From: Pseudomonadota bacterium
GTDB taxonomy: Bacteria; Pseudomonadota; Gammaproteobacteria; Burkholderiales; Burkholderiaceae_C
Direction: 5' to 3'
Length of the DNA stretch: 64,000 nucleotides
Assembly (NCBI GenBank): GCA_021845505.1
Contig: JAJZVU010000014.1
Location: 1-64,000 of the forward strand
The notes below the pieces were generated by a model, which had not been told where the DNA came from, searched no databases, and saw only the letters and a program-made list of their open reading frames with translations. The position numbers were made by a program, and so were the translations under genes. Positions within the stretch are counted from its first letter, which is position 1; each line of letters begins with the position of its first letter. This document shows, piece after piece, positions 24,143 through 41,931 of the stretch.

Positions 24143-25333
24143 TCAGTCGCCGCGCTGGCGCAGCGAGGCGTCGGCGCGGCCGGCGAGGATCTTGCGACCC
24201 ATGCTGAAGCGATGCACCTCGCTCGGGCCGTCGTAGATGCGGAACGCCCGCATGTCGGCGAAGATCCGCGCCACCACCTTTTCCCCGGTCACCCCCTGCC
24301 CGCCGAGGATCTGCACGCAGCGATCGACCACCCGCCACTGCGCCTCCGAGCACACCACCTTGGCGCGACTGGACTCGAAATTGCAGCGCTCGCCGCGGTC
24401 GAGCAGCCACGCGGTGTGCCAGATATGCAGCCTGGCGCTCCACAGGTCCATGTCGTTGTCGGCCAGCATGAAACCCACCCCCTGGTGCTCGCCCAGCGGA
24501 CGGCCGAAGGCCTGGCGCTGGCGGGCATGCGCCAGCGCCTCGTCGTGGGCGCGCCGCGCCTGGCCGAGCCAGCGCATGCAGTGGGTCAGGCGCGCCGGCG
24601 CCAGGCGCACCTGGGCGTAGCGAAAGCCCTGCCCGGGCTCGCCCAGGATGTCGCTCGCCGGCACCCGCAGGCCCTCGAACCGCACCACCCCGTGGCCCCC
24701 GGTGAAACACGAGTCCAGCGCGTCCATCGTGCGCGCGACGCGGATTCCCGGGCGGTCCATGTCGGCCAGGAACATGCTGGCCGAACCGTCCTCCATGCGA
24801 GCCATGATGATCGCGAAACCCGCGCCCTGGGCGCCGGTGATCAGCCACTTGGTTCCGTCGATCACGTAGTCGTCGCCGTCGCGCACCGCCGTCGTCAGCA
24901 GCATCGACGGGTCGGCTCCGGCCCCCGGCGGAGGTTCGGTCATGCAAAAGCACGAGCGCACCCGACCTTGCACCAGCGGGCGCAGCCAGCGCTGCTTCTG
25001 CGAGGGCGACGCGACGGCCTCCAGCAGGTGGATGTTGCCTTCGTCGGGCGCGTGGATGTTCAGCGCGGTCGGGCCGAGCGAGGAATAGCCGGCCTCCTCG
25101 AACACGACGGCCTTCGCCAGGTGCCCCAACCCCAGCCCTCCCAGCTCACGCGGGGCGTGCGGGGTCAGCAGGCCGGCGGAGCGCGCCAGCGCGATGAGCT
25201 CGCCGCGCAGATCCTCGCTCGGTCCGTGGGCTCCGTAGCGGGGGTCGGTCTCGTAGGGAACGATCTGTTCGGCGACAAAGGTCCTGACCCGGGCCTGCAG
25301 TTCGGCAAGCTCGGGGGAAAGCGAAAAGTCCAT
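24143..25333 (-). CDS. Acyl-CoA dehydrogenase, ACAD10/11-like
   Basis: FAD flavoprotein of 396 aa that oxidises an acyl-CoA at the alpha-beta bond. N-terminal helical domain (LQARVRTFVAEQIVPYE), central FAD/substrate barrel (CFCMTEPPPGAGADPS; WLITGAQGAGF), C-terminal helical domain (RQAFGRPLGEHQ; QILGGQGVT). The usual catalytic YEG is YDG here (RIYDGPSEVHR), as in ACAD10/11-type enzymes acting on unusual acyl groups. ATG 25333 has GGAG at 6-base spacing; the in-frame ATG at 25345 overlaps that site. It lies 99 bp downstream of the Mo-cofactor transferase gene on the same strand, so cotranscription with the cox genes is possible but functionally unexplained. Confidence 0.88.
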   Translation of the reverse strand: MDFSLSPELAELQARVRTFVAEQIVPYETDPRYGAHGPSEDLRGELIALARSAGLLTPHAPRELGGLGLGHLAKAVVFEEAGYSSLGPTALNIHAPDEGNIHLLEAVASPSQKQRWLRPLVQGRVRSCFCMTEPPPGAGADPSMLLTTAVRDGDDYVIDGTKWLITGAQGAGFAIIMARMEDGSASMFLADMDRPGIRVARTMDALDSCFTGGHGVVRFEGLRVPASDILGEPGQGFRYAQVRLAPARLTHCMRWLGQARRAHDEALAHARQRQAFGRPLGEHQGVGFMLADNDMDLWSARLHIWHTAWLLDRGERCNFESSRAKVVCSEAQWRVVDRCVQILGGQGVTGEKVVARIFADMRAFRIYDGPSEVHRFSMGRKILAGRADASLRQRGD

Positions 25334-25432
25334 TCGAGGCTCCATCGGCAGCGCCGCCGCGGCCAGCGCGGCGGCCGGATTGCACCCATGCGGCCCTATT
25401 GTGCAGCGCGCAACCTTCGAGCGGCGCGGACT

Positions 25433-26116
25433 TCAGCTCTCGCAGCGCTCCAGGTCGGCCGGCCAGCGCAGCCGATGGCCGGTGCGCGCGGCCAGCGCCT
25501 CGATGTCCTGCTCGGTGTCGATGTCCACGCCGTAGCGGCGGTTGCTGGTCGGCCAGTGCAGCACCCGCGAGGCGTTGTGCTGCTGCCAGCGGCGGCAGCC
25601 GGCATCGCCGGACTCCGACTCGATCTGCTCGCGCACCGCTGCGCTGAACACCAGCGGGTTGCCGCGCTGGCCGTCGACCAGCGGCTGCACGAGTTCCACC
25701 CCTTCGGGGCGCTGCTTGTAGGCCTTGATCAGATCGGCGATGTCCTGGGCGTGCAGCAGCGGCTGGTCGGCCAGCGCCACCAGCACGCAATCCAGCGTCG
25801 CGGGCAGCGCCCGCAGCCCTGCGCGCATCGACGACGCCTGCCCCTGCTCGGGGTGCGGGTTGTGCACCAGGGTCACCGGGAATTCGCGCACCACCGGCTC
25901 GATGCGCTCGCCGTGGCGCCCCAGCACGACCACCACCTCGTCGACCCCGCCGCCCGACAGCGCGACCAGCGCGCGGCGGATCAGCGGCACGCCGCCGAGT
26001 TCGAGCAGGCACTTCGGGCGGCCGCCGATGCGCGACCCCTCGCCCGCGGCCAGCAGCACCGCGCCGACGCGCAGCCTGGAGTACAGGCCGCCTCCGGCCT
26101 TGAGCAGGCATCCCAT
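25433..26116 (-). CDS. MocA-like molybdenum cofactor nucleotidyltransferase
   Basis: 227 aa NTP-transferase of the MobA/MocA class. The nucleotide motif LLAAGEGSRIGGRPKCLLEL is at residues 21-40, the metal Asp lies in VALADQPLL, and GNPLVF follows. Such enzymes cytidylylate molybdopterin to give the MCD cofactor that xanthine-oxidase-family enzymes, including CO dehydrogenase, require. It begins 3 bp after the XdhC-like gene and is the last gene that clearly belongs to the cox locus. No signal peptide; cytosolic. Confidence 0.85.
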   Translation of the reverse strand: MGCLLKAGGGLYSRLRVGAVLLAAGEGSRIGGRPKCLLELGGVPLIRRALVALSGGGVDEVVVVLGRHGERIEPVVREFPVTLVHNPHPEQGQASSMRAGLRALPATLDCVLVALADQPLLHAQDIADLIKAYKQRPEGVELVQPLVDGQRGNPLVFSAAVREQIESESGDAGCRRWQQHNASRVLHWPTSNRRYGVDIDTEQDIEALAARTGHRLRWPADLERCES

Positions 26117-26119
26117 GGC

Positions 26120-26992
26120 TCAGCTCCCGCAGCCCGAGGCCGCGATCGCGGTCGCCTGCGCCGATGCCGGCGCCGTCGGGGCCTGCTGCGGCGCCGCCGA
26201 CGCCTGCCCGGAGCGCCGCGCCGCGACCACTGCGGCCAGCACCGACAGCGCGATTTCCTGCGGCGTATGCGCCTGGATCGGGGTCCCGGCCGGGGCGATG
26301 ATGGCCTCCACCGCGGCGCGGTCGGCGCCGCCGGCGATCAGGCTTTCACGCAGCACGCCGGCCTTGCGCGCGCTGGCGACGAACCACAGCCGCCGCGGCT
26401 GCAGCGCCAGCGCACCGCGCAGCGCCTGCAGGTCGCGCTGGCCCTGGGTGGCGACGACCGCGAAGTCGCAGGCCGGCAGGCGCTCGCGCACGAAATCGGG
26501 AACATCCTTGCCCAGTCGCTGCACGCCGTCGGACTCGCCGTCCTTCAGCCCCGGGGCGATCCAGGCCAGGCGCAACCCCAGGTGGGGCGCCAGCGCCACC
26601 AGCGCCCGCGCCAGCGGCGTGTTGCCGAACACCGCCAGCAGCGGGTCCGGCAGCACCGGGTCGACGAACAATTCCAGCGCGCCGCCGGACTGGCAGGCCA
26701 TGCCGAACTCCAGCACGTCGCCCAGGTCGCGCTCCGAGCCCTCGGCCGAAGGGCTGATGCGCACGGTGCGCGCGCGTCCGTCGGCGAGCGCCTGGCGCAC
26801 CGTGCGCAGCACCGCCGGCTGCGCGCAACCGCCGCCGATCCAGCCGTGGATGCTGCCATCGACCAGCACCAGCGCCTTGTCCCCGGGCTTGGACGAGGTC
26901 GGCGCCTGCACCCTGAGCACGGTGACCAGCGCGAACGCGCGACCCTCGCGTTGACATTGCGCGGCCTGTTGGATCCATTCGTTTGCCAGCAT
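26120..26992 (-). CDS. XdhC/CoxF-like molybdoenzyme maturation factor
   Basis: 290 aa. N-terminal XdhC-CoxI domain (SKPGDKALVLVDGSIHGWIGGGCAQPAVLRTVRQAL at about 34-70, with the conserved Cys) and C-terminal Rossmann-like domain (LAVFGNTPLARAL; FAVVATQGQRDLQAL). XdhC proteins bind Mo cofactor and insert it, sulfurated, into the large subunit; in CO oxidisers CoxF/CoxI do this for the Cu-S-Mo centre. ATG 26992 follows GAGGAG. The tail is Ala/Pro-rich and ends SGCGS, an unusual terminal Cys. Position between coxE and the cytidylyltransferase supports CoxF; not certain whether F or I is the better name. Confidence 0.85.
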   Translation of the reverse strand: MLANEWIQQAAQCQREGRAFALVTVLRVQAPTSSKPGDKALVLVDGSIHGWIGGGCAQPAVLRTVRQALADGRARTVRISPSAEGSERDLGDVLEFGMACQSGGALELFVDPVLPDPLLAVFGNTPLARALVALAPHLGLRLAWIAPGLKDGESDGVQRLGKDVPDFVRERLPACDFAVVATQGQRDLQALRGALALQPRRLWFVASARKAGVLRESLIAGGADRAAVEAIIAPAGTPIQAHTPQEIALSVLAAVVAARRSGQASAAPQQAPTAPASAQATAIAASGCGS

Positions 26993-27047
26993 GTTCACTC
27001 TCCTCGTCGGGCGGGCGCGCACCGCCTAGCCTCGCACAGCCGCGCCC

Positions 27048-28217
27048 TCAATGCAAATGCTTCCTCGCCGCGGCCAGGTCGGCCAGGCTGGCCAGTGGCA
27101 CGAAGCGCTGGACACTGGAGCGCGCGGCCTGCAGCGCCGCGGCAGCCGGAACCGCGCGCGTCGGATGAAACCAGGTGATCTGCGCGCCCCGCCCGCGCAG
27201 CGCCCGCAGCGCCTGCGCCAGCACCTCGGGCGGGTCGGTATCGAATCCGTCGGACATCACCCACACGCGCACCCCCCTGCCCAACTGGTGGCGGGCATCG
27301 CCGCGCGCGAATTCCTGCAGGCAGGCGCCGATCCGCGTGCCGGCGCCGAAGCCCGCGGTCACGGCGTTGATCTTCTCCTGCGTGGCCGCGCTGTCGCGCT
27401 GCATGAGGGCGCTGACTTCGGCCAGCCGCAGATGAAACACGAACACCCGGGCGTCGCAGGCGCCGGCGAAGGCGCGCGCCACGCGCAGGAAGAACGCGCC
27501 GTGCGCCTGCATCGACCGGCTGACGTCGGCGAGGATGAACAGCCGCGGCGGCTCGACGCGGCGCAGCTTCCATCCCGGCTGCAGCGGCTCGCCGCCCCAG
27601 GCGACGCTGCGCCGCAGCGTGGCGCGCAGGTCCAGCCGCGCCTGGCTGGCGGCGCGCACGCTGCGCCAGCGGCGAGTCGGGCGCGGCCGCAAGCGCTGCG
27701 CGATGTCGCGCGCCACCCGCTGCAGGGCCAGCAGATCCTGCGGCAACCACATCTGGCCGTCGCGCTGCTGCAGCGCTTCGGCGCGGCTGGCGCCGCCCTG
27801 TGCCCGCTCGGCGGCCTGTTGCTCGCCCTCTCCGGCCTGCTCGGCCGTCGCCGCCGCGCCCGCCGACTGCGGCGCGGCAGCGGCCTGCTGCTCCATGCCA
27901 CGATGCAGGTCGGAGACGAGTTGCCGCAGGTCGCGGCTGCGCCGAGTCTGCTGGCTCACCTTCACCTGGCCGCGCAGGCGTTGCGGCCACCAGTAGCGCT
28001 CGAACACATCGCGCCAGCGCCGCCAGTCGCGCAGGTTGCTGCAGGCGATGCTGCGCCAGGCCGCCTCCACCGCGGCCGCCTCGCCCACCCCCAGCGACAG
28101 CGCGGCCTGCAGCATGCAGCGCTCCTCGGCCGGGCCGACCGCGAAGCCGTGCTCGCGCAGCAGCGCGGCGAATCCGGCGATGCGCTCGACCGCGGATACC
28201 GACGATGTGGCCGGCAT
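27048..28217 (-). CDS. coxE: VWA-domain CO dehydrogenase maturation protein CoxE
   Basis: 389 aa. N-terminal helical region (RIAGFAALLREHGFAVGP), a low-complexity Gln/Ala/Glu stretch (about 110-150), then a von Willebrand A domain with MIDAS motif DVSRSM and the later GTRIGACLQEF and MSDGFDTDPPEVLA metal-site segments. CoxE works with the AAA+ ATPase CoxD to build the [CuSMoO2] active site. It lies 32 bp downstream of coxD on the same strand. Confidence 0.9.
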   Translation of the reverse strand: MPATSSVSAVERIAGFAALLREHGFAVGPAEERCMLQAALSLGVGEAAAVEAAWRSIACSNLRDWRRWRDVFERYWWPQRLRGQVKVSQQTRRSRDLRQLVSDLHRGMEQQAAAAPQSAGAAATAEQAGEGEQQAAERAQGGASRAEALQQRDGQMWLPQDLLALQRVARDIAQRLRPRPTRRWRSVRAASQARLDLRATLRRSVAWGGEPLQPGWKLRRVEPPRLFILADVSRSMQAHGAFFLRVARAFAGACDARVFVFHLRLAEVSALMQRDSAATQEKINAVTAGFGAGTRIGACLQEFARGDARHQLGRGVRVWVMSDGFDTDPPEVLAQALRALRGRGAQITWFHPTRAVPAAAALQAARSSVQRFVPLASLADLAAARKHLH

Positions 28218-28249
28218 GGGCTGCTCCAGTACGCGGCGCCCGCGCCCGG

Positions 28250-29188
28250 TCAGCGCGCGGCCTCGCGCAGCGCCTCGCCGACGCCGCCGGCCTCGCCGCG
28301 CTCGCCCAGTTGCCGCAGACGCTCGGCCTGCATCGCGAAGCGATCCTCCTGGGTCTTGAGCAGGCAGCCCAGGGTGCTGAGCAGCAGATCGAGGTCCTCG
28401 GGAAGCCGCTGCTGTCCCAGGCCATGCAGCGCACGGATCCAGTCCAGGGTCTCGGCGACGCCTGGGGTCTTGGCCAGGTCCTGCTTGCGCAGGGCCTGCA
28501 CGAAGGCCACCGCCTGCTCGGCCAGCCGGATCTGCACCTGCGGCAGCGCCAGCCGCACGATGCGGGTCTCGCGTTCCAGGTCGGGATAGTCCAGGTAGTG
28601 GTACAGGCAGCGCCTGCGCAGCGCGTCGGACAGCTCGCGCGTGCCGTTGCTGGTCAGGATGACCTGCGGGATGCTGGTGGCGCGCACGGTGCCGATTTCC
28701 GGCACGGTGATCTGGTAGTCGGCCAGCACCTCGAGCAGGAAGGCCTCGAAGGCCTCGTCGGCGCGGTCGATCTCATCGATCAGCAGCACGCAGGGTTCGG
28801 GGGTGCTGATCGCCCGCAGCAGCGGCCGCTCGAGCAGGTAGTCGCGCCCGAACAGGTCCTGCTCGCGCAACGCCTGCTGGCTGTTCTCGTGCAGCCGGAT
28901 GGCCATCAGCTGGCGGCCGTAGTTCCATTCGTAGGCCGCCTGCGACAGGTCCAGCCCCTCGAAGCACTGCAGCCGCACCAGCTGACGCGAGCCGGCACGC
29001 GCCAGCGCGCCGGCGAGCGCGGTCTTGCCGACCCCGGCGTCGCCCTCCACCAGCAGCGGACGCTGCAGGTCCTGCGCCAGCCAGCAGGCGGTCGCCAGGT
29101 CGGCGTCGGCGACGTAGCCGGCCTGGTGCAGCGCCTCGCGCAGCGCGCGCGGCGCCGCCAGGCCGGGCTGCGCTGCCGCCTGGCTCAT
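28250..29188 (-). CDS. coxD: MoxR-type AAA+ ATPase CoxD
   Basis: 312 aa. Walker A GDAGVGKT (about 48-55), Walker B VLLIDEIDRAD, sensor 1 LTSNGTREL, and the MoxR pattern QCFEGLDLSQAAYEWNYGRQ. CoxD is a chaperone-like ATPase that unfolds the apo-CODH for insertion of sulfur and copper. The ATG overlaps the coxG stop (29185-29188, ATGA), showing translational coupling. The frame is open further upstream but antisense-like there; ATG 29188 gives the family N-terminus. Confidence 0.92.
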   Translation of the reverse strand: MSQAAAQPGLAAPRALREALHQAGYVADADLATACWLAQDLQRPLLVEGDAGVGKTALAGALARAGSRQLVRLQCFEGLDLSQAAYEWNYGRQLMAIRLHENSQQALREQDLFGRDYLLERPLLRAISTPEPCVLLIDEIDRADEAFEAFLLEVLADYQITVPEIGTVRATSIPQVILTSNGTRELSDALRRRCLYHYLDYPDLERETRIVRLALPQVQIRLAEQAVAFVQALRKQDLAKTPGVAETLDWIRALHGLGQQRLPEDLDLLLSTLGCLLKTQEDRFAMQAERLRQLGERGEAGGVGEALREAAR

Positions 29189-29820
29189 CGGGCCGGCCTG
29201 GCGAAGCGCGAGGCGAACCAGCCGCGGACCAGCGCCCACAGCAGCGCCAGGCCGTTGATCTCGCGTGCCGCCTGACGCGCGGGCGCGGCAGGCGCGGGCG
29301 GCTGCTGCGCGGCCTGCGCGGGGGGCACGGCGTCCGGCTGCGCCTGCGCCTGCGCCTGCGGCAGTTGGCGCGCCGCCTGCTCGAAGTTCTGCACGAACTG
29401 GCCGAGCATCATTTCCGACACCTGGACCATCATGCGGCCGCCGAACTGGGCGAACTTGCCGTTGACCACCACGCTGGCCTGCCCGAGCAGGCTGGCCTTC
29501 GCCGGCGACTCGGCCAGCGGCTCGATGACCGCGTTCAAGTCCATCGCCGCCGAGGAGCCGCCCTTGTCGGCACCCTTGGCGCGCAGCACCACGCGGCGCG
29601 CCTGGGGGTCGCATTCGACGACCTCGACGCTGCCGCCGAACTGCGCCAGCGCCGGGCCGACCTTGACCTTCACCGCGCCCTTGTAGGAGTTCGCGGACAG
29701 CTGTTCGGTGATCTCGGCCCCCGGCATGCACCCGGCGAGCTGCCGCAGGTCCTGCAGCACAGCCCAGGCGCGTGCCGGGTCGACGTCCAGCGGATAGGTC
29801 TTGTCGATCTTGACTTCCAT
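29185..29820 (-). CDS. coxG: CO dehydrogenase membrane-anchoring protein CoxG (SRPBCC)
   Basis: 211 aa. Residues 1-145 form an SRPBCC lipid-binding fold (KTYPLDVDPARAWAVLQDLRQLAGCMPGAEI; NGKFAQFGGRMMVQVS). A Gln/Ala/Pro-rich linker leads to a C-terminal amphipathic helix (INGLALLWALVRGWFASRF) that fits peripheral membrane attachment. CoxG recruits CODH to the cytoplasmic membrane and helps deliver quinone to it. 36 bp after coxL; overlaps coxD. Confidence 0.9.
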   Translation of the reverse strand: MEVKIDKTYPLDVDPARAWAVLQDLRQLAGCMPGAEITEQLSANSYKGAVKVKVGPALAQFGGSVEVVECDPQARRVVLRAKGADKGGSSAAMDLNAVIEPLAESPAKASLLGQASVVVNGKFAQFGGRMMVQVSEMMLGQFVQNFEQAARQLPQAQAQAQPDAVPPAQAAQQPPAPAAPARQAAREINGLALLWALVRGWFASRFARPAR

Positions 29821-29856
29821 GGTGTGTCTCGAAAGGGTCGGGCCGCGGCGCGGCGA

Positions 29857-32268
29857 TCAAGCCGCCACGCCGTGCTTGCGCAGTTCCTTCCACACGCGGA
29901 AGGAGTTGTGGGGCATGTCCATGTGGGTGACGCCGAGGTGGGCGAAGGCGTCGACCACCGCCGAGGTGAAGGTCGGGATCGATCCCACGTGGGGCGACTC
30001 GGCGACTCCCTTGGCGCCGATCGGGTGGTGGGGCGACGGCGTCACGGTGTAGTCGGTCTCCCACCTGGGAGCTTCCACCGCGGTGGGCAGGAAGTAGTCC
30101 ATCAGGGTGTTGCCCAGCAGGTTGCCCTGGGCATCGAAGGGCATCTGCTGGCCCATCGCCACCGCGAATCCCTCGGTCAGCCCGCCGTGGATCTGGCCCT
30201 CGATGATCATCGGGTTGATGCGGGTGCCGCAATCGTCCAGCGCGTAGAAGCGCCGCACCTTGGTCTCGCCGGTGGCGCGGTCGATGTCGACCACGCACAG
30301 GTAGATTCCGAAGGGATAGGTGAAGTTCGGCGGGTCGTAGTAATGCACCGCCTCCAGCCCCGGCTCCATGCCGTCGGGCGGCTGGTGGTAGGCGGCCCAG
30401 GCGATGTCGTTCATGGTCTTGTAGCGCGAGTCGTCGCCCTTGACCTTGAAGCGATCGACCTCCCAGTCCAGGTCCTGTTCGCTGACCTCCAGCAGGTGGG
30501 CCGCGATGCGCCGCGCCTTGGCGTGGATCTTGCGCGCGGCCAGCGCGATCGCCGCGCCGGCCACCGGGGTCGAGCGGCTGCCGTAGGTGCCGAGCCCGTA
30601 GGGAGCGGTCGAGGTGTCACCCTCCTCGACCTGGATGACCTCGGAGGGGATGCCCAGTTCGGTGGCGATGATCTGGGCGTAGGTCGTCTGGTGCCCCTGC
30701 CCCTGGGTGATGGTGCCCATGCGGGCGATCGCGCTGCCGGTCGGATGCACCCGGATTTCACACGAATCGAACATCCCCACGCCCAGGATGTCGCACATCT
30801 TGCTCGGGCCGGCGCCGACGACCTCGGTGAAGGTGACCAGGCCGATGCCCATCAGCGTCGGGCAGTCCGGATCGGCGCGCTTGGCCGCCTGCTCGGCGCG
30901 CAGCGCCTTGTAGTCGACCGCGTCCAGCACCTTGTCGAGCGCGGTGTGGTAGTCCCCCGAGTCGTAGTCGAAGCCGAAAGGGCTGCGGTAGGGGAACTGC
31001 TCCTTGCGGATGAAATTGCGGGCGCGGATCTCGGCCTTGTCCATTCCCAGCTTCTGCGCCAGCACGTCGACCATGCGCTCGATCAGGTACACCGCCTCGG
31101 TGACGCGGAACGAACAGCGGTACGCGACGCCTCCCGGAGCCTTGTTGGTGTAGACCCCCTTGACCTCGGCATGCGCGGCGGCGATGTCGTAGGAACCCGA
31201 GCAGATGTGGAACAGTCCGGCCGGGAACTTGCTCGGGTCGGCGCAGGCATCGAAGGCGCCGTGGTCGGCCAGCACCTTCACGCGCAGCCCGAGGATGCGG
31301 CCGTCGGCGGTGGCCGCGAGTTCGCCGTCCATGTGGTAGTCGCGGGCGAAGGCGGTGGTGGAGATGTTCTCGATGCGGTCCTCCACCCACTTCACGGGCC
31401 GCCCCAGCACGATGGAGGCGACGATCGCGCAGACGTAGCCCGGGTAGACCCCGACCTTGTTGCCGAAGCCGCCGCCGATATCGGGGCTGATGATCCGCAC
31501 CTTGGACTCGGGAATTCCCGACAGCATGGACACCACGGTGCGCACCACGTGCGGCGCCTGCGAGGTCATCCAGGTGGTCAGTTCGCCGCGCACCGGATCG
31601 AAGCTGGCCACGCAGCCGCAGGTTTCCAGCGGGCAGGGATGCACCCGCGGGTAGTACATGTGCTGCGACACCGTGACCTCGGCCCTGGCGAACGCGGCGT
31701 CGGCCGCTTCCTTGTCGCCCGCCTGCCAGGTGAAGATGTGGTTGGGATGCTCGCGCGCGCCATGCGCGCCGCTGGTCTTGCCGGCCAGGTCCTCGCGCAG
31801 CACCGGCGCGTCGGCGGCCAGCGCGGCGTAGGGGTCGATGACCGGCGGCAGTTCGTCGTACTCCACCTCCACCGCCTCCACCGCGTCGGCGGCGATGTAG
31901 CGGTCGTCGGCGATGACAATGGCCACTTCCTGCATCTGGAAGTGCACCTTTTCGTCGGCCAGCACCGCGGCCACGTCGCCTGCCAGCGTGGGCATCCAGT
32001 GCAGTTTCAGCGGCTTGAGGTCGTCGGCGGTCAGCACCGCGTGCACGCCGGGGATCGCCAGCGCGGCCTCCTTGTGGATCTTCCGGATGCGGGCATGGGC
32101 GACCGGCGAGCGCACGATGTCCATGTGCAGCATCGCCGGCAGCTTGATGTCGTCGACGTAGTTGCCCTTGCCCTGAATGAAGCGGGCGTCTTCCTTGCGC
32201 AGGCGCGAGGCGCCCATCCCGGCCAAGGCGAGTTCGCGGGCCTCGGCGGTGTCAGCCGGTGCGTTCAT
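29857..32268 (-). CDS. coxL: Aerobic carbon monoxide dehydrogenase large subunit, form I (CoxL)
   Basis: Molybdenum-copper catalytic subunit oxidising CO + H2O to CO2; 803 aa against 809 for the Oligotropha enzyme. The diagnostic form I loop AYRCSFR is at 382-388, with Cys385 placed to bind the Cu of the CuSMo centre; form II proteins have AYRGAGR instead. The catalytic Glu is Glu757 (GAKGVAES), equivalent to Glu763. Other Mo-cofactor segments: DIGGGFGNKVG (about 263-273) and GQGHQTTYAQI. All key residues are present, so the enzyme should be a true CODH rather than a purine or aldehyde oxidase. Upstream coxM-coxS order is also the form I order. Confidence 0.96.
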   Translation of the reverse strand: MNAPADTAEARELALAGMGASRLRKEDARFIQGKGNYVDDIKLPAMLHMDIVRSPVAHARIRKIHKEAALAIPGVHAVLTADDLKPLKLHWMPTLAGDVAAVLADEKVHFQMQEVAIVIADDRYIAADAVEAVEVEYDELPPVIDPYAALAADAPVLREDLAGKTSGAHGAREHPNHIFTWQAGDKEAADAAFARAEVTVSQHMYYPRVHPCPLETCGCVASFDPVRGELTTWMTSQAPHVVRTVVSMLSGIPESKVRIISPDIGGGFGNKVGVYPGYVCAIVASIVLGRPVKWVEDRIENISTTAFARDYHMDGELAATADGRILGLRVKVLADHGAFDACADPSKFPAGLFHICSGSYDIAAAHAEVKGVYTNKAPGGVAYRCSFRVTEAVYLIERMVDVLAQKLGMDKAEIRARNFIRKEQFPYRSPFGFDYDSGDYHTALDKVLDAVDYKALRAEQAAKRADPDCPTLMGIGLVTFTEVVGAGPSKMCDILGVGMFDSCEIRVHPTGSAIARMGTITQGQGHQTTYAQIIATELGIPSEVIQVEEGDTSTAPYGLGTYGSRSTPVAGAAIALAARKIHAKARRIAAHLLEVSEQDLDWEVDRFKVKGDDSRYKTMNDIAWAAYHQPPDGMEPGLEAVHYYDPPNFTYPFGIYLCVVDIDRATGETKVRRFYALDDCGTRINPMIIEGQIHGGLTEGFAVAMGQQMPFDAQGNLLGNTLMDYFLPTAVEAPRWETDYTVTPSPHHPIGAKGVAESPHVGSIPTFTSAVVDAFAHLGVTHMDMPHNSFRVWKELRKHGVAA

Positions 32269-32316
32269 CGGTGGTGTCTCCCTGTGTGGACTGCGGGGAA
32301 TCGAGGCGCCTGGGCC

Positions 32317-32808
<492 letters not shown>

Positions 32809-32825
32809 TTGCGGCTCCTCCGGGT

Positions 32826-33686
32826 TCAGGCGCAACGCGACCATGCCTTGCTCAGCGCGCGCTTGACCATCTGCGCGGCCATCGCGGTCTTGTATTCCAC
32901 GTCGCCGCGCAGGTCCTCCGCCGGCTCGCAGATCGCCGCCGCCGCGTCGGCCGCGGCCTGCAGCGACGCCGCGTCCAGGCCGCGACCGCGCAGCAGGTCC
33001 TCGGCGGCCGTCGCGCGCAGCGCGGTCGGCCCGACGTTGGTGAGGGCGATGCGCACGTGCTCGATGCGCTCGCCCTGGCGGCGCAGCACCGCCGCGCAAC
33101 CCGCGGTGGCCCAGTCGCCGGTCTTGCGCTTGAGCTTTTCGTAGGCCCAGCCGGTACCGGCCTTGAATGCCGGAACGCGGATTTCGCACAGCACCTCGTC
33201 GTCCTGCATCGCCGTCATGTAGGTGCCGAGGAAAAAGCCGTCGGCGGCGACGCTGCGCCGGCCCTTCGGCCCCTGCAGCACCAGCCTGGCATCGAGCGCG
33301 ATGGCCAGCGCCGGGTGGTCGTTGCCGGGATCGCCGTGGGCGATGTCGCCACCGATGGTCCCGCGGTTGCGCACCTGGGGGTCGGCGATCAGCGCCGCCG
33401 CCTCGGGCAGCAGCGGCACCTTGGCGCGCAGCACCTCGGACGCGATGAGGTCGTTTTCCACGGTCATCGCACCGATCACCACGGTGTCGCCGCGATCGTG
33501 GATGCCGCGCAGCTCGTCGATGCGGTTGAGGTCGATCAGGTTGGCCGGCTGGGCGAAGCGCAGCTTCATCATCGGCAGCAGGCTGTGCCCCCCGGCCAGC
33601 AGCTTGGCGTCGCCCAGGCTGCCGAGCAGCGCGACCGCCTCGTCCACCGAGCGCGGGACGTGGTACTCGAAACGCGGTGGGATCAT
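32826..33686 (-). CDS. coxM: CO dehydrogenase medium subunit, FAD-binding (CoxM)
   Basis: 286 aa flavoprotein subunit. FAD pyrophosphate motifs AGGHSLLP (31-38) and [11 protein letters not shown] (about 111-121) are both intact; C-terminal CO_deh_flav_C domain follows. It hands electrons to the quinone pool or respiratory chain. First gene of the structural operon: GGAGA precedes ATG 33686, and the promoter with three 21-bp-phased repeats lies upstream. Confidence 0.96.
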
Positions 33687-33720
33687 CGATGTCTCCGATT
33701 TGTCCAGGACAGGCGAACTA

Positions 33721-33726
33721 TAAATA
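33721..33726 (-). promoter_or_regulatory. Candidate -10 of the cox operon promoter
   Basis: TATTTA on the minus strand in the only AT-rich stretch of the region; predicted start near 33714, about 28 bases before coxM. The hexamer 17 bp upstream (TCGAAT) is a poor -35, as expected for an activator-dependent promoter. Confidence 0.45.
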
Positions 33727-33771
33727 TTCGACGGATGCTTTGCATTCGATCAAAGTTTCGGTCGATTTATT

Positions 33772-33821
33772 CACGAAACGACGGAATCTATGCACGAATT
33801 GCACGCCGCCGTCCATGAAAC
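33772..33821. promoter_or_regulatory. Three 21-bp-phased direct repeats, candidate RcoM operator
   Basis: CACGAAAC (33772-33779), CACGAATT (33793-33800) and CATGAAAC (33814-33821) on the plus strand, each exactly 21 bp apart (two helical turns). Toward coxM they read TTCGTG/TTCATG. The nearest repeat is centred about 61 bp before the predicted start, typical for an activator. LytTR proteins bind direct repeats of this kind, and rcoM is adjacent, so RcoM is the likely ligand. This is inference. Confidence 0.55.
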
Positions 33822-33829
33822 GGCCGCGA

Positions 33830-33849
33830 GCGCGGCGAAGCCGCCGCGC
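33830..33849. terminator. Hairpin after rcoM
   Basis: GCGCGGCG-AAGC-CGCCGCGC, a perfect 8 bp stem with a 4-base loop, 55 bp past the rcoM stop and just before the phased repeats. It would separate rcoM from cox operon transcription. Confidence 0.65.
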
Positions 33850-33904
33850 AATCCGGGAAAGTCCCTAGCCGGGCGTCGAAAGACCGGAAGGGATCGCTGC
33901 GGGC

Positions 33905-34675
33905 TCAGGCGCCGCGCATCACGCCCAGCGCTGCGCGCAGCCGGGACACCTCGGCGCGCGACACCGGCACCCACACCGGCGGCTCGCCGCGCACCTGCAC
34001 CCGCGTCTTGCCGTCGGCGCGCCCGAGTTCGAGCACCGCATCCAGGTTGACGATGTAGCAGCGGTGCACCCGCAGGAAGCGCTGGGCGTCGAGCCGCGCC
34101 TGCAGGTCGCCGATGCTCAGGTTGCAGAACTGCCAGCCCATGCTGGTCAGCACCCGTGTGTAGTGGGCCTGCGATTCCAGCAGCACCACGTCGGCGGTGT
34201 CGACGAAGGTCACGCGATGGTTGGCCACCAGCGGGATGCGCGCGAGCAGCCGCTTGTCGGAGCGCCCCGGCGGCGCGATGGCCGCTGCCGCGGGCGCCTC
34301 GCCCTGCACCACCAGCTGGGTGACGTCGTAGAACACCAGCGCGAAGCCGGTGGTCTGCCCCGCCTCGCCGGCCAGCCGGGTCACCTTGATCAACAGCACC
34401 TGCTCGGGGATGTTGATGATCATGGTCATCGGCAGACCATGGGCCACCGGGCACGACGAGGCCTGGTCGAGCAGGAACGAAACCTTGGCCGCCGATTGCG
34501 CCGGATGGAACGAGGTCACCAGCTTGTCGAAGGGCTGCCTCTCGCCGACCGGCAGCACGCGGCGCGCGAAATCGTTCATGGCCAGCACCCGCCTGTGGGG
34601 GTCGAGGTGCACCACTCCGACTTCGAACTTCTCGAACAGGTACAAGGCCGAGCCCGGGGCCTGCGGCGCTGCCAT
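33905..34675 (-). CDS. rcoM: RcoM: heme-PAS / LytTR carbon monoxide-sensing transcription activator
   Basis: 256 aa single-component regulator. N-terminal PAS domain (about 10-120: FEKFEVGVVHLDPHRRVLAMNDFARR) with candidate heme ligands His57 (SFHPAQSAAKV), Cys75 (SSCPVAHG) and Met85; the Cys-Met spacing of 10 equals that of Cys94/Met104 in characterised RcoM. C-terminal LytTR DNA-binding domain (about 150-250: RVTFVDTADVVLLESQAHYTRV; FLRVHRCYIVNLDAV). CO binding to the heme switches on cox transcription. GAGGAG precedes ATG 34675. It lies directly upstream of coxM, same strand, as in Burkholderia. A hairpin separates the transcripts. Confidence 0.88.
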   Translation of the reverse strand: MAAPQAPGSALYLFEKFEVGVVHLDPHRRVLAMNDFARRVLPVGERQPFDKLVTSFHPAQSAAKVSFLLDQASSCPVAHGLPMTMIINIPEQVLLIKVTRLAGEAGQTTGFALVFYDVTQLVVQGEAPAAAAIAPPGRSDKRLLARIPLVANHRVTFVDTADVVLLESQAHYTRVLTSMGWQFCNLSIGDLQARLDAQRFLRVHRCYIVNLDAVLELGRADGKTRVQVRGEPPVWVPVSRAEVSRLRAALGVMRGA

Positions 34676-36249: not shown

Positions 36250-38196
36250 TCAGCCTCCCGGCTCGGCGCGCAGCTTGCGCCACAGGGTGCTGCGCGCGAT
36301 GCCCAGGCGGGCGCAGGCCAGCGCGCGGTCGCCCCCGCATTCGCGCAGCGTGCGCTCGATGACCTCGCGCTCGGATTCGGCGCGGCGCTGCGCCAGCGCC
36401 CCGCCGCCGGCCGGCGCGTCGGCCGGGCGCGCCAGTTCGGGCAGCAGGTCGCGCAGCGCCTGCGCGCTCAGCGCCTCGGGGTCGAACGCGGCGGCGCAGG
36501 CCACGCGTTCGACCAGGTTCTCCAGTTCGCGCACATTGCCCGGCCAGGAGTAGGCCGGCGCGGCATCCACGCATTGGCGCAGCACCCGCAGCAGATGCGG
36601 CCCCGAGGCCGCTGGCGCGGCGCCGCGCGCCAGCGCCTTGTCCAGCAGGTGCGCCGCCAGCGCGCCCAGGTCCTCGCGCCGCTCGCGCAGGCTCGGCAAT
36701 TCCAGGCGCAGGATGTTCAGCCGGTAGTACAGGTCGCGCCGGAACTCCCCCGACTCGATGCGCGACGGCAGGTCGCGATGGGTGGCCGCGATCACCCGCA
36801 CGTCCACCGGAGTCGGCTCGGTCGCGCCGATGCGCCAGATCTCGCGCTCCTGCAGCACGCGCAGCAAGCGGGTCTGCAGCGGGACCGGCATGTCGCCGAT
36901 TTCGTCCAGGAACAGCGTGCCGGTGTGCGCGGCCTCGAACAACCCGGGCTTGCCGGCCTTGCGCGCGCCGGTGAACGCGCCCTCCTCGTAGCCGAAGAGT
37001 TCGCTCTCCAGCAGGCTCTCGGGGAAGGCCGCGCAATTGACCGCGACGAAGGGCTGCGCGCGCCGCCGGCTGGCCGCGTGCATGCCCTGCGCGAACAGCT
37101 CCTTGCCGGTTCCGCTCTCGCCGACGATCAGCACCGTGGCCTCGCTGCGCGCGAAGCGCTGCGCCTGCTCGCGGGCGCGCTGCATCGGCAGGCTGTCGCC
37201 GACCAGGTCGGACAGCCGCCAGCGCGTGGCCAGCGCCGCCGGGCGGGCGCGCGAACGCAGGCTGCGGTCGACGCGCTGGATGGTCGCCGGGTCCTGGCAG
37301 GTCAGCACGGCGCCGGTGCGCACCCCGCGCTCGACGATCGGCGAGCGGCTGACCACCAGGGTCTGTGCGCGAAAGCGCACGATGTCGTCGGCCTGCTCGG
37401 TGCCGTCGCGCAACGCGGCGGCCAGGCTGAACTCCGGCGCGACCTCCCCCAGCACCCGGCCGAGCAGCTGCTGGCGGCCGCGGCCGAGCAGCCGCTGCAT
37501 CGGCGGGTTCACGGCCTCGATGCGCTCACCCTCGTCGACCGCGACCACGCCGTCGCGCAACTGCTCGAGGATGGTGTTCAGGCGCTCGCGCTTGGCGGCG
37601 GCGATGCGTGCGGCGCGGGCGACCTCGACCGCGTCGTCGATCGCCGCCCGCACCGCGTCGTGGGAGTACAGCAGCACGCCGCGCATGCCCATCTGCTCGG
37701 CCAGGTCCAGCACCATGCCCGGCGCGACGACGACCTCGATTCCGGCGTCGCGCAATTCGCGCACGCAGGCCGCCGCGTCGGCCTCGCTGTGGTAGCTGCG
37801 CTGCACGATGTGCAGCGCGAAGTCGCGGCTGAAGCGCTCGACCTCGCTGCTGGTCGCGCCGAAGCTCACCAGCGCGATGCGCCGCGAGATGCTGCGCGCG
37901 CGGGCCAGCGCCAGCATGAGGTCGAAGCCGCCGACCTTGACCAGCACCACCGGCAGCTCGGTTCGACTGCGCAGGAAGTCCCCGTGCAAACCGGCCGCGA
38001 CCAGCACGTCGACCCCCTGCGCACAGCGCCGCGCCTCGATCTCCGCCAGCGCTTCGTCGAAGCCCCGGTCGACCACGTCGACCCGCGCCCGCTGGGCGTA
38101 TTCGGGCGCCACTTCGTGCAACAGCTGCTTCAGGCGCAGGAAGCCGATGGCCAGGATGCGCGGCGGGGATTCGGGCGCTGGGGGGAGAGCGGACAT
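36250..38196 (-). CDS. prpR: Sigma-54-dependent propionate catabolism activator PrpR
   Basis: 648 aa. N-terminal PrpR_N sensory domain (about 10-190, binds 2-methylcitrate in homologues), a PAS-like segment (about 195-300: [28 protein letters not shown]), an AAA+ domain with Walker A GESGTGKE and the sigma-54 contact loop GAFTGA, Walker B LFLDEIGD, and a C-terminal Fis-type helix-turn-helix ([18 protein letters not shown]). ATG 38196 gives the expected N-terminus. Divergent from prpBCD, whose promoter is of the sigma-54 class, which fits direct activation. Confidence 0.93.
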
Positions 38197-38234
38197 GGCT
38201 TGACGGCGGGAACCGGGATGCCATTGTTTCATCC

Positions 38235-38262
38235 TTGCGACGCATTTTCCAGTTTTGCAACG
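38235..38262. promoter_or_regulatory. Candidate PrpR upstream activating sites
   Basis: Direct repeats TTGCGACG (38235-38242) and TTGCAACG (38255-38262), 20 bp apart, 60-80 bp upstream of the sigma-54 promoter of prpB and next to the divergent prpR start. Position and phasing suit an enhancer-binding protein; binding is inferred. Confidence 0.4.
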
Positions 38263-38314
38263 ATGCGCCGGCAACACCCCCCGTTCCCTGTCGGAACCGC
38301 TCGCCGGCAACGCG

Positions 38315-38329
38315 TGGCACGCTCCTTGC
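38315..38329 (+). promoter_or_regulatory. Sigma-54 promoter of prpBCD
   Basis: TGGCAC-N5-TTGC, a perfect match to the -24/-12 consensus, 38 bp upstream of the prpB ATG. The adjacent activator PrpR carries the GAFTGA loop for sigma-54. Confidence 0.85.
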
Positions 38330-38366
38330 AGCTGTCGGCGAGCACCCTCCTTCTCACGCGACTGCC

Positions 38367-39254
38367 ATGAAATCTCCCGGATCCCTGTTCCGTACCGCGC
38401 TGGCCGAGGAAAGCCCGCTGCAAGTCATCGGCGCGATCAACGCCAACCATGCGCTGCTCGCGCAGCGCGCGGGTTACCGCGCGATCTACCTGTCGGGCGG
38501 CGGGGTCGCCGCCGGGTCGCTGGGCATGCCCGACCTGGGAATCAACACCCTGGACGACGTGCTGACCGACGTGCGCCGCATCACCGACGTGTGCGATCTG
38601 CCGCTGCTGGTGGATATCGACACCGGATTCGGCCCCAGCGCCTTCAACATCGCGCGCACGGTCAAGAGCCTGATCAAGTTCGGCGCCGCGGCGTGCCACA
38701 TCGAGGACCAGGTCGGCGCCAAGCGTTGCGGCCACCGCCCGGGCAAGGAGATCGTCCCGTCGCAGGAAATGGCCGACCGGGTGAAGGCCGCGACCGACGC
38801 CCGCACCGACCCCGCGTTCTTCGTCTTCGCCCGCACCGACGCCATCGCCGTCGAGGGCGTGGAGCCGGCGATCGAGCGCGCGCTGGCCTGCGTGGAGGCC
38901 GGCGCCGACGGCATCTTCGCCGAGGCGGTACCGGACCTCGCGACCTACCGGCGCTTCGTCGAGGAGCTGAAGGTGCCGGTGCTGGCCAACATCACCGAAT
39001 TCGGCAAGACGCCGCTGTTCACGGTGGCCGAACTCCGCTCGGCCGGGGTCGGCGTGGTGCTCTACCCGCTGTCGGCCTTCCGCGCGATGAACAAGGCCGC
39101 GGAGGCGGTGTACGAGACCATCCGCCGCGAGGGCAGCCAGCGCAGCGTGCTGGCTACCATGCAGACTCGCGAAGAACTCTACGAACGCATCGGCTACCAC
39201 CTGTACGAACAGCGGCTGGACCAGATGTTCGCCGCCCGCCACGACACGCCCTAA
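38367..39254 (+). CDS. prpB: 2-methylisocitrate lyase
   Basis: Cleaves 2-methylisocitrate to pyruvate and succinate, last step of the methylcitrate cycle. 295 aa. The active-site loop [12 protein letters not shown] carries the catalytic Cys, and the metal/substrate residues lie in VDIDTGFG and IEDQVGAK. The start at 38367 places the gene just downstream of the sigma-54 promoter; upstream in-frame starts overlap that promoter. prpC follows after 19 bp. Confidence 0.95.
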
Positions 39255-39273
39255 ATCGCAAGGAGCACACGCC

Positions 39274-40428
39274 ATGTCAGACACCGCCACCCCCGGGTTC
39301 AAGCCCAAGAAATCCGTCGCGCTGTCGGGAACGGTCGCCGGCAACACCGCGATCTGCACCGTCGGCCGCACCGGCAACGACCTGCACTACCGCGGCTACG
39401 ACATCCTCGACCTGGCCGAGACCTGCGAGTTCGAGGAAATCGCCCATCTGCTGGTGCACGGCAAGCTGCCCAACGCGGCCGAGCTGGCCTCCTACAAGAC
39501 CCGGCTGAAGGCCATGCGCGGGCTGCCGCAGCCGCTGCGCCAGGCGCTGGAGGCGCTGCCGGCGGCCAGCCATCCGATGGACGTGATGCGCACCGGCGTG
39601 TCGGTGCTGGGCTGCACGCTGCCCGAGAAGGACGACCACAACCTGCCGGGGGCGCGCGACATCGCCGACCGCCTGATGGCCAGCCTGGGCTCGATGCTGC
39701 TGTACTGGTACCACTACAGCCACAACGGCCGGCGCATCGAGGTGGAGACCGACGACGACTCGATCGGCGGCCATTTCCTGCACCTGCTGCACGGCGCGCG
39801 CCCGTCGGAACTGTGGGTGCGCGCGATGCACACCTCGCTGATCCTGTACGCCGAGCATGAATTCAACGCCTCGACCTTCACGTCGCGCGTGGTGGCCGGC
39901 ACGGGCTCGGACATGTACTCGGCCATCACCGGGGGCATCGGCGCGCTGCGCGGACCCAAGCACGGCGGAGCCAACGAGGTGGCCTACGAGATCCAGAGCC
40001 GCTACGCGTCGCCCGACGAGGCCGAGGCCGACATCCGCCGACGCGTCGAGGCCAAGGAGGTGGTGATCGGCTTCGGCCACCCCGTCTACACGGTCAGCGA
40101 CCCGCGCAACAAGGTGATCAAGGGCGTCGCCAGGCGGCTGAGCGAGGACCAGCAGGACATGCGGCTGTACTCGATCGCCGAACGCCTGGAGAGCGTGATG
40201 TGGGACATCAAGAAGATGTTCCCCAACCTGGACTGGTTCTCCGCGGTCAGCTACCACCTGCTGGGAGTGCCCACGGCGATGTTCACCCCGCTGTTCGTCA
40301 TCGCGCGCACCTCGGGCTGGGCCGCGCACGTCATCGAGCAGCGCCAGGATGGGAAAATCATCCGCCCGAGCGCAAACTACACCGGCCCCGAGGACCAAGC
40401 CTTCGTTCCGCTGTCGCGGCGCGCCTGA
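39274..40428 (+). CDS. prpC: 2-methylcitrate synthase
   Basis: Condenses propionyl-CoA with oxaloacetate; 384 aa citrate-synthase fold. Conserved histidines and Asp: [26 protein letters not shown], and [14 protein letters not shown]. The N-terminal pattern [21 protein letters not shown] and [10 protein letters not shown] are typical of PrpC rather than GltA. Its TGA stop is the loop of a GC hairpin (40419-40436), which may reduce read-through into prpD. Confidence 0.95.
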
Positions 40429-40436
40429 AGGCGCGC
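40419..40436 (+). terminator. Hairpin with the prpC stop codon in its loop
   Basis: GCGCGCC-TGAA-GGCGCGC, 7 bp perfect stem; the TGA at 40426-40428 is the prpC stop. No T-run follows. It could act as an attenuator or RNA-stability element between prpC and prpD. Confidence 0.5.
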
Positions 40437-40476
40437 GCCACCCCACCTCATCCTGTCCTGCTGACGAGAACCACCG

Positions 40477-41931
40477 ATGTCATCCCACTCCTCCAACAAC
40501 CGCCCGGCGCCCGACAAGGTGCTGGTGGACATCGCCGACTACGTGCTCGGCCACACCCAGTTCCACGGCCTGGCCTTCGAGACCGCGCGGCTGTGCCTGA
40601 TCGACACCCTGGGCTGCGGCCTCGAGGCGCTGGAGTATCCGGCGTGCACCAAGCTGCTCGGCCCGGTGGTCCCGGGAACCGTGGTGCCGCACGGCGCCAA
40701 GGTGCCCGGAACCCCCTACCAGCTCGACCCGGTCAGCGCCGCGTTCAATATCGGCGCGATGATCCGCTGGCTGGATTTCAACGACACCTGGCTGGCGGCC
40801 GAGTGGGGGCACCCGTCGGACAACCTGGGAGGCATCCTGGCCGCGGCCGACTGGCTCAGCCGCACCGCGGTGGCCGCCGGCAAGCAGCCGCTGCTGATGC
40901 GCGACGTGCTCAACGGCATGATCCAGGCGCATGAGATCCAGGGCGTGATCGCGCTGGAGAATTCGTTCAACAAGGTCGGGCTCGACCACGTGCTGCTGGT
41001 CAAGCTGGCGACCACCGCGGTGGTCGGCCGCCTGCTCGGACTCGACCGCGACGAGCTGATCAACGCGCTGTCGCTGGCCTTTGTCGACGGCCAGTCGCTG
41101 CGCACCTACCGCCACGCCCCCAACACCGGCAGCCGCAAGAGCTGGGCGGCGGGCGACGCCACCAGTCGCGGCGTGCGCCTGGCGCTGATCGCCCGCAGCG
41201 GGGAAATGGGCTACCCATCGGTGCTCACCGCCCCGACCTGGGGCTTCTACGACGTCAGCTTCCAGGGCAAGGAGTTCCGCTTCCAGCGCGGCTACGGCTC
41301 CTACGTGATGGAAAACGTGCTGTTCAAGATCAGCTTCCCGGCGGAGTTCCATTCGCAGACCGCGGTCGAGGCGGCGATGCAGCTGCATGCCCAGCTGGCC
41401 GCGGCCGGAAAGAGCGCAGCCGACATCCGGCGCATCACCATCCGCACCCACGAGGCGTGCATACGCATCATCGACAAGAAGGGGCCGCTGCACAACCCGG
41501 CCGACCGCGACCACTGCATCCAGTACATGGTCGCGGTGCCGCTGCTGTACGGGCGCCTGACCGCCGGCGACTACGAGGACTCGATCGCTTCCGACCCGCG
41601 CATCGACGCCTTGCGCGAGCGCATCCAGTGCGTGGAGGACGCGCAGTTCACCGCCGACTACCACGACCCCGAGAAGCGCTCGATCGCCAATGCGCTGACC
41701 GTCGAGCTGAACGACGGCAGCGTGCTGCCCGAGGTCGTCGTCGAATACCCCATCGGCCACAAGCGCCGGCGCGCCGACGGCATCCCGCTGCTGGAGGCCA
41801 AGTTCCGCACCAACCTGGCGCGCCGCTTCGCGGCCCGCCAGCAGCAGGCCATCCTGCACGCGTCGCTCGACAGCGCGCACCTGGCGCAGATGCCGGTGCA
41901 CGAGTACGTCGACCTGTACTGCCCGCAATGA
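40477..41931 (+). CDS. prpD: 2-methylcitrate dehydratase PrpD
   Basis: Dehydrates 2-methylcitrate to cis-2-methylaconitate; 484 aa MmgE/PrpD family. Conserved blocks: [40 protein letters not shown], and [18 protein letters not shown] with [13 protein letters not shown]. It is the enteric-type PrpD route, not the AcnD/PrpF pair often found in Burkholderiales. An aconitase for the following hydration must be elsewhere. 48 bp after prpC. Confidence 0.95.

Follow-up and report, generated by a model that had tools for sequence, protein, structure and literature searches.

The window analysed here, a stretch of 64,000 nucleotides, very probably carries the operon of a Thiomonas-like betaproteobacterium for a form I aerobic molybdenum-copper CO dehydrogenase, which CO would induce by way of RcoM, a one-component heme sensor encoded next to it. 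Nothing about the locus is out of the ordinary; the form I set is genuine and complete, with the expected active-site residues and with direct repeats in the right place for an operator ahead of coxM. We infer that the source genome is Thiomonas-like; its genus probably includes a genome labelled Thiomonas.

A form I cox locus of nine genes

The first-pass annotation had placed a complete locus at 25433-34675, with rcoM directly upstream, and both statements hold. Nine intact frames lie on the minus strand within this interval, running from 34675 to 25433 in the order rcoM, coxM, coxS, coxL, coxG, coxD, coxE, coxF/xdhC and mocA, and rcoM ends 218 bp before coxM. The spacings from rcoM onward are 218, 17, 48, 36, -4, 32, 55 and 3 bp; the short distances after coxM fit a single transcript beginning ahead of that gene. 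Gene names were assigned from Pfam and NCBIfam profile matches, as follows.

33905..34675, minus strand: rcoM, 256 aa, PAS domain (predicted heme sensor) and LytTR DNA-binding domain
33770..33819, minus strand: candidate RcoM operator, TTCATGGA (33812-33819), TTCGTGCA (33791-33798) and TTCGTGAA (33770-33777)
32826..33686, minus strand: coxM, FAD-binding medium subunit, 286 aa, best solved match CutM (1ffu_C)
32317..32808, minus strand: coxS, two-[2Fe-2S] small subunit, 163 aa, best solved match CutS (1ffu_A)
29857..32268, minus strand: coxL, form I molybdenum-copper large subunit, 803 aa, TIGR02416
29185..29820, minus strand: coxG, CoxG-family protein, 211 aa, passes PF06240
28250..29188, minus strand: coxD, AAA+ ATPase, AAA_5
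27048..28217, minus strand: coxE, VWA protein, PF05762
26120..26992, minus strand: coxF/xdhC, XdhC family, PF02625 and PF13478, named coxF by its position after coxE
25433..26116, minus strand: mocA, molybdenum cofactor cytidylyltransferase-like NTP transferase, PF12804; the product scored 121.8 bits against TIGR03310, under the 186.45 cut-off, and the gene's position is conserved among relatives

CoxL matched TIGR02416 with 1557.7 bits, so far above the cut-off of 991.15 that a chance match is not an issue. The catalytic residues named in the first-pass annotation were found where it had put them, the motif AYRCSFR at residues 382-388 with Cys385, and Glu757 within GAKGVAESPH. All eight of the cysteines it had counted in CoxS are present (42, 47, 50 and 62; 101, 104, 136 and 138), fitting the two [2Fe-2S] patterns, and a ninth, Cys69, lies beyond these patterns. 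Both FAD motifs claimed for CoxM were located (AGGHS at 31, TIGG at 110), and the order coxM-coxS-coxL is that of form I, as had been said. The best solved matches of CoxL, CoxS and CoxM were the CutL, CutS and CutM chains of 1ffu. The CutMSL CO dehydrogenase (PDB 1ffu/1ffv), presumably that of Hydrogenophaga pseudoflava, matched all three subunits over nearly their full length, and ordinary sequence divergence was the sole difference seen.

A CoxL phylogeny set against forms I and II, the check that the annotation had proposed, was built with FastTree under the LG model from 30 CoxL-family sequences (31 were picked; L022 was left out as short). The window CoxL fell inside form I with a branch support of 0.957, in a Burkholderiales group alongside Paraburkholderia aromaticivorans, Afipia OM5, Bradyrhizobium and others. 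Among plasmid-borne enzymes, it was 77.6% identical to that of P. aromaticivorans and 68.3% to that of Afipia OM5. Enzymes with the AYRGAGR motif, including one from the same genome, lay outside form I; they were not monophyletic, Rubrobacter being separate (support 0.446). The form I member from Nonomuraea (L085) gave no xYR motif match in the stretch scanned.

The locus could instead encode a CO dehydrogenase-like molybdenum hydroxylase, of form II or another kind, with a substrate other than CO, and the same genome does encode two paralogues, one of form II type with AYRGAGR (C18, 43% identity) and one with PYRGVGR (C84, 35% identity). We consider this barely conceivable and reject it on motif and tree, since the window CoxL bears AYRCSFR and groups within form I with the CoxL of Afipia OM5, away from the AYRGAGR enzymes. 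Form I CO dehydrogenase is the reading retained here.

The form II-type paralogue (L004, C18:115336-117678) has relatives of coxS, coxM and coxD nearby, and the other (L005, C84:45682-48027) is a PYRGVGR molybdenum hydroxylase. Next to the catalytic glutamate (window CoxL 755-758), the Burkholderiales CoxL sequences of the tree read GVAES; those of Afipia, Thermomicrobium, Nonomuraea and others read GVGES.

The genes that follow coxL had all been described as maturation genes (coxG-D-E-XdhC-MocA). All are present, but the description does not extend to coxG, which in Oligotropha (Afipia) carboxidovorans has no part in cluster maturation according to excerpts of two sources; there, membrane recruitment of the enzyme or electron delivery to quinone is proposed for CoxG (PMC4240915; PMC13240472). 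By analogy, the window CoxG is likely to be a membrane or quinone link. The excerpted text proposes molybdenum sulfuration for CoxD and copper insertion for CoxE (PMC4240915); the roles of CoxD, CoxE and CoxF used below follow the excerpts of PMC4240915 and PMC13240472, and that of MocA in the CO dehydrogenase cofactor follows an excerpt of PMC11771112.

An acyl-CoA dehydrogenase gene (24143-25345) lies 87 bp past mocA on the same strand. We leave it out of the operon: of loci L010-L091, L013 alone had a match at E 1e-20, and a partial one, a weak test, as many loci stop soon after mocA. There was no sign of recent horizontal gain, the GC content of the locus (0.710) matching that of the remaining window (0.711) and relatives of the flanking exonuclease and prpR genes lying upstream of rcoM in 10 and 8 fetched loci respectively. 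A propionate (methylcitrate) cluster occupies 36250-41931 of the window, with a prpR-like sigma-54 activator gene on the minus strand, and PEP mutase/ICL-family (prpB-like), citrate synthase (prpC-like) and MmgE/PrpD genes on the plus strand.

Layout among relatives and known systems

When named genomes were scanned with RcoM, 68 loci were found; in 65 of them coxM comes after rcoM and shares its strand. Two of the others (L012 and L016) have no coxM, the contig ending about 330 bases past rcoM. In the third, from Thiomonas sp. clean1822 (L064, 10001-20750), the cox operon is located downstream of rcoM but is read from the other strand, and the two converge. Where the strand is shared, the cox genes found follow the order of the window. 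Excerpts of PMC11771112 describe cox clusters with coxGDEF, rcoM and mocA in CO-oxidizing strains of Cupriavidus ulmosensis and Paraburkholderia terrae. Because it is common in named loci and already in print, the layout is known.

Compared by gene set, Cupriavidus ulmosensis CV2 and Paraburkholderia terrae COX have the same genes as the window in a different genus (PMC11771112, in excerpt). Plasmid pBN2 of Paraburkholderia aromaticivorans differs from the window in that its LytTR regulator gene is divergent, with an OmpW gene in between. Afipia (Oligotropha) carboxidovorans OM5 shares coxMSL, coxD, coxE, coxF and coxG, but its coxG is placed after coxF, whereas that of the window precedes coxD. 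Its regulator is the MHYT-LytTR protein CoxC rather than RcoM (PMC11347149, in excerpt), and the excerpted text of PMC11771112 gives it further cox genes, without rcoM and mocA. RcoM-1 of Paraburkholderia xenovorans combines PAS and LytTR domains, as the window protein appears to do, and has a direct-repeat operator, TTCNNGCA (PMC11347149, in excerpt), which the candidate operator of the window resembles.

The adjacent regulator and the repeats ahead of coxM

The rcoM product matched LytTR with 59.2 bits, above the cut-off of 22.6, and PAS_4 with 23.0 bits (E 0.0001), marginally short of the cut-off of 23.1; the domain order is thus an N-terminal PAS, on this marginal match, followed by a C-terminal LytTR. 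The name RcoM was assigned from LytTR, PAS_4 and the conserved position, with no curated RcoM model behind it. An NCBIfam search returned response regulators alone, all below cut-off, and a PDB search gave no match at E 0.001. In an alignment of the window protein with 68 others, His57, Met83 and Met85 were present in 69 of 69 sequences and Cys75 in 68 of 69. The match of these residues to the RcoM positions His74, Cys94 and Met104 is tentative, being made by offset; on it, Met85 would correspond to Met104 and His57 to His74. Met104 is named in a reference title within PMC9670170, and the excerpt of that source gives histidine and methionine as the heme ligands, CO taking the place of the methionine. 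These features support an RcoM-like identity for the window regulator.

PAS folds are general sensors and the PAS_4 match is marginal, so that a neighbouring PAS-LytTR protein might sense redox state, O2 or NO rather than CO. We regard this as very improbable, given the position ahead of coxM in 65 of 68 named loci, the invariant histidine and methionine, and repeats that resemble the RcoM-1 motif; a CO-sensing RcoM remains our preferred reading.

The rcoM-coxM gap contains three direct repeats, TTCATGGA, TTCGTGCA and TTCGTGAA, whose minus-strand starts at 33819, 33798 and 33777 are 21 bp apart. They are absent from the first-pass annotation, and were spotted by eye before the published motif was seen. 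That motif, for RcoM-1, consists of three copies of TTCNNGCA with gaps of 12-13 bp (PMC11347149, in excerpt). The window triplet agrees with it in 16 of 18 letters at 13-bp gaps, repeats 1 and 3 each being one letter off, and its score was equalled in one of 5000 Markov shuffles.

Relatives were compared through 67 rcoM-coxM gaps including that of the window, of which 65 were usable (L064 and L065 were excluded). A pair of repeats at 21-bp spacing that matched the motif in 11 or more of 12 letters occurred in 42 of these 65, the loci being related and hence not independent. At other spacings, scanned from 12 to 33 bp, the same pair was found in four gaps at 12 bp, one at 28, three at 30, one at 31 and none elsewhere; in a shuffled control, 3 of 1300 regions reached 11 letters at 20 or 21 bp. 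The best pair in the remaining 23 gaps had just 9 or 10 of 12 letters, and this weak group included all ten gaps examined from relatives with a 77-82% identical RcoM (L010, L011, L013-L015 and L017-L021). In near kin, the window sites were shared by L063 alone, whose RcoM is 98% identical. From sequence, then, the operator appears clear in the window and in many distant Burkholderiales, yet drifted in near kin. The weak pairs of L010-L021 would fit a joint drift of RcoM and its sites in that group.

When the 3.7-Mb genome was scanned with a pattern made from the window triplet, the window held the sole site with fewer than 3 mismatches. Seven other sites had 3 mismatches each, as against seven for the reversed pattern, which gives no support for a wider RcoM regulon in this genome. 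We also considered whether rcoM regulates itself via this operator; the idea is unsupported, as the 99-bp gap upstream of rcoM gave 4 of 6 letters at best. No sigma-70-like promoter was found in a scan of 33680-33910. We conclude that the repeats at 33770-33819 are probably RcoM binding sites.

The predicted course of events, from heme and CO sensing through transcription to enzyme activity, would be as follows. CO would displace the methionine on the RcoM heme, the LytTR domain would bind the three direct repeats ahead of coxM, and transcription of coxMSL-GDEF-mocA would follow. MocA would add the cytosine dinucleotide to the molybdenum cofactor and CoxD, CoxE and CoxF would build the CuSMoO2 centre, allowing CoxMSL to oxidize CO to CO2 and CoxG to hand the electrons to quinone.

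Calvin-cycle genes and the use of CO

The first-pass annotation had argued that, no RuBisCO being seen here, CO was more probably a supplement than a basis for autotrophy. This does not follow, as the lack of RuBisCO in 64 kb says nothing about the genome, and outside the window the genome does encode both chains of RuBisCO, large and small, as well as phosphoribulokinase and a CbbQ-family protein. The search of the rest of the genome for cbbLS that the annotation had itself suggested found both genes.

cbbL: contig C7, 473 aa, best solved match 1svd
cbbS: contig C7 (L002:8425-8754), PF00101

We take 1svd to be a form IA RuBisCO. Contig C7 also carries genes for a CbbQ/NirQ/NorQ-family ATPase, a VWA protein and a LysR regulator. 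Phosphoribulokinase is encoded on contig C6, adjoining a class 1 fructose-bisphosphatase. PF00485 alone cannot tell this enzyme from its kin, as it also matches in E. coli; its identity was settled because the NCBIfam phosphoribulokinase model matched above cut-off (491 bits against 362), and its solved match was 1a7j. The same genome carries soxB (contig C80), and a search of it with the NiFe hydrogenase large subunit model (PF00374) gave no match.

CoxL matches at E 1e-200 or better were found in 18 of 28 genomes of the genus, all with at least 90% identity, and RuBisCO matches in 23 of 28, one of them (G007) a fragment. Fifteen genomes, the source genome included, had both; three drafts (G014, G015 and G021) had CoxL without a RuBisCO match. 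G021 carries two form I-like CoxL genes (C106:31895-34300 and C20:3976-6381), each product 94% identical to that of the window.

With the key Calvin-cycle enzymes encoded, CO may be either a supplement or the sole energy source. We lean somewhat towards a carboxydovore, in which CO merely supplements heterotrophy or sulfur oxidation and is never the sole growth substrate. Cupriavidus ulmosensis and Paraburkholderia terrae strains that share this gene set are described as carboxydovores in excerpts of PMC11771112, soxB makes another electron donor likely, and 3 of the 18 CoxL-positive genomes, though drafts, lack a RuBisCO match. Against this stand the encoded RuBisCO chains, CbbQ-family protein and phosphoribulokinase. 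More tentatively, and with less likelihood in our judgement, the SoxB-bearing lineage could be a true carboxydotroph in which RcoM-induced CO oxidation powers the Calvin cycle. A literature search on Thiomonas and carbon monoxide (dehydrogenase), with subscription journals mostly beyond its scope, returned no title or abstract opening on CO oxidation by Thiomonas.

The operon is standard, and the additions made here are two modest ones. The first is the RcoM-type repeat pair that recurs in the rcoM-coxM gaps of many Burkholderiales. The second is that one Thiomonas-like genome combines SoxB with form I CO dehydrogenase, RuBisCO and phosphoribulokinase, which makes CO-driven autotrophy testable in that genus; if it were true, primary production there would draw on CO as an electron donor that has been overlooked.
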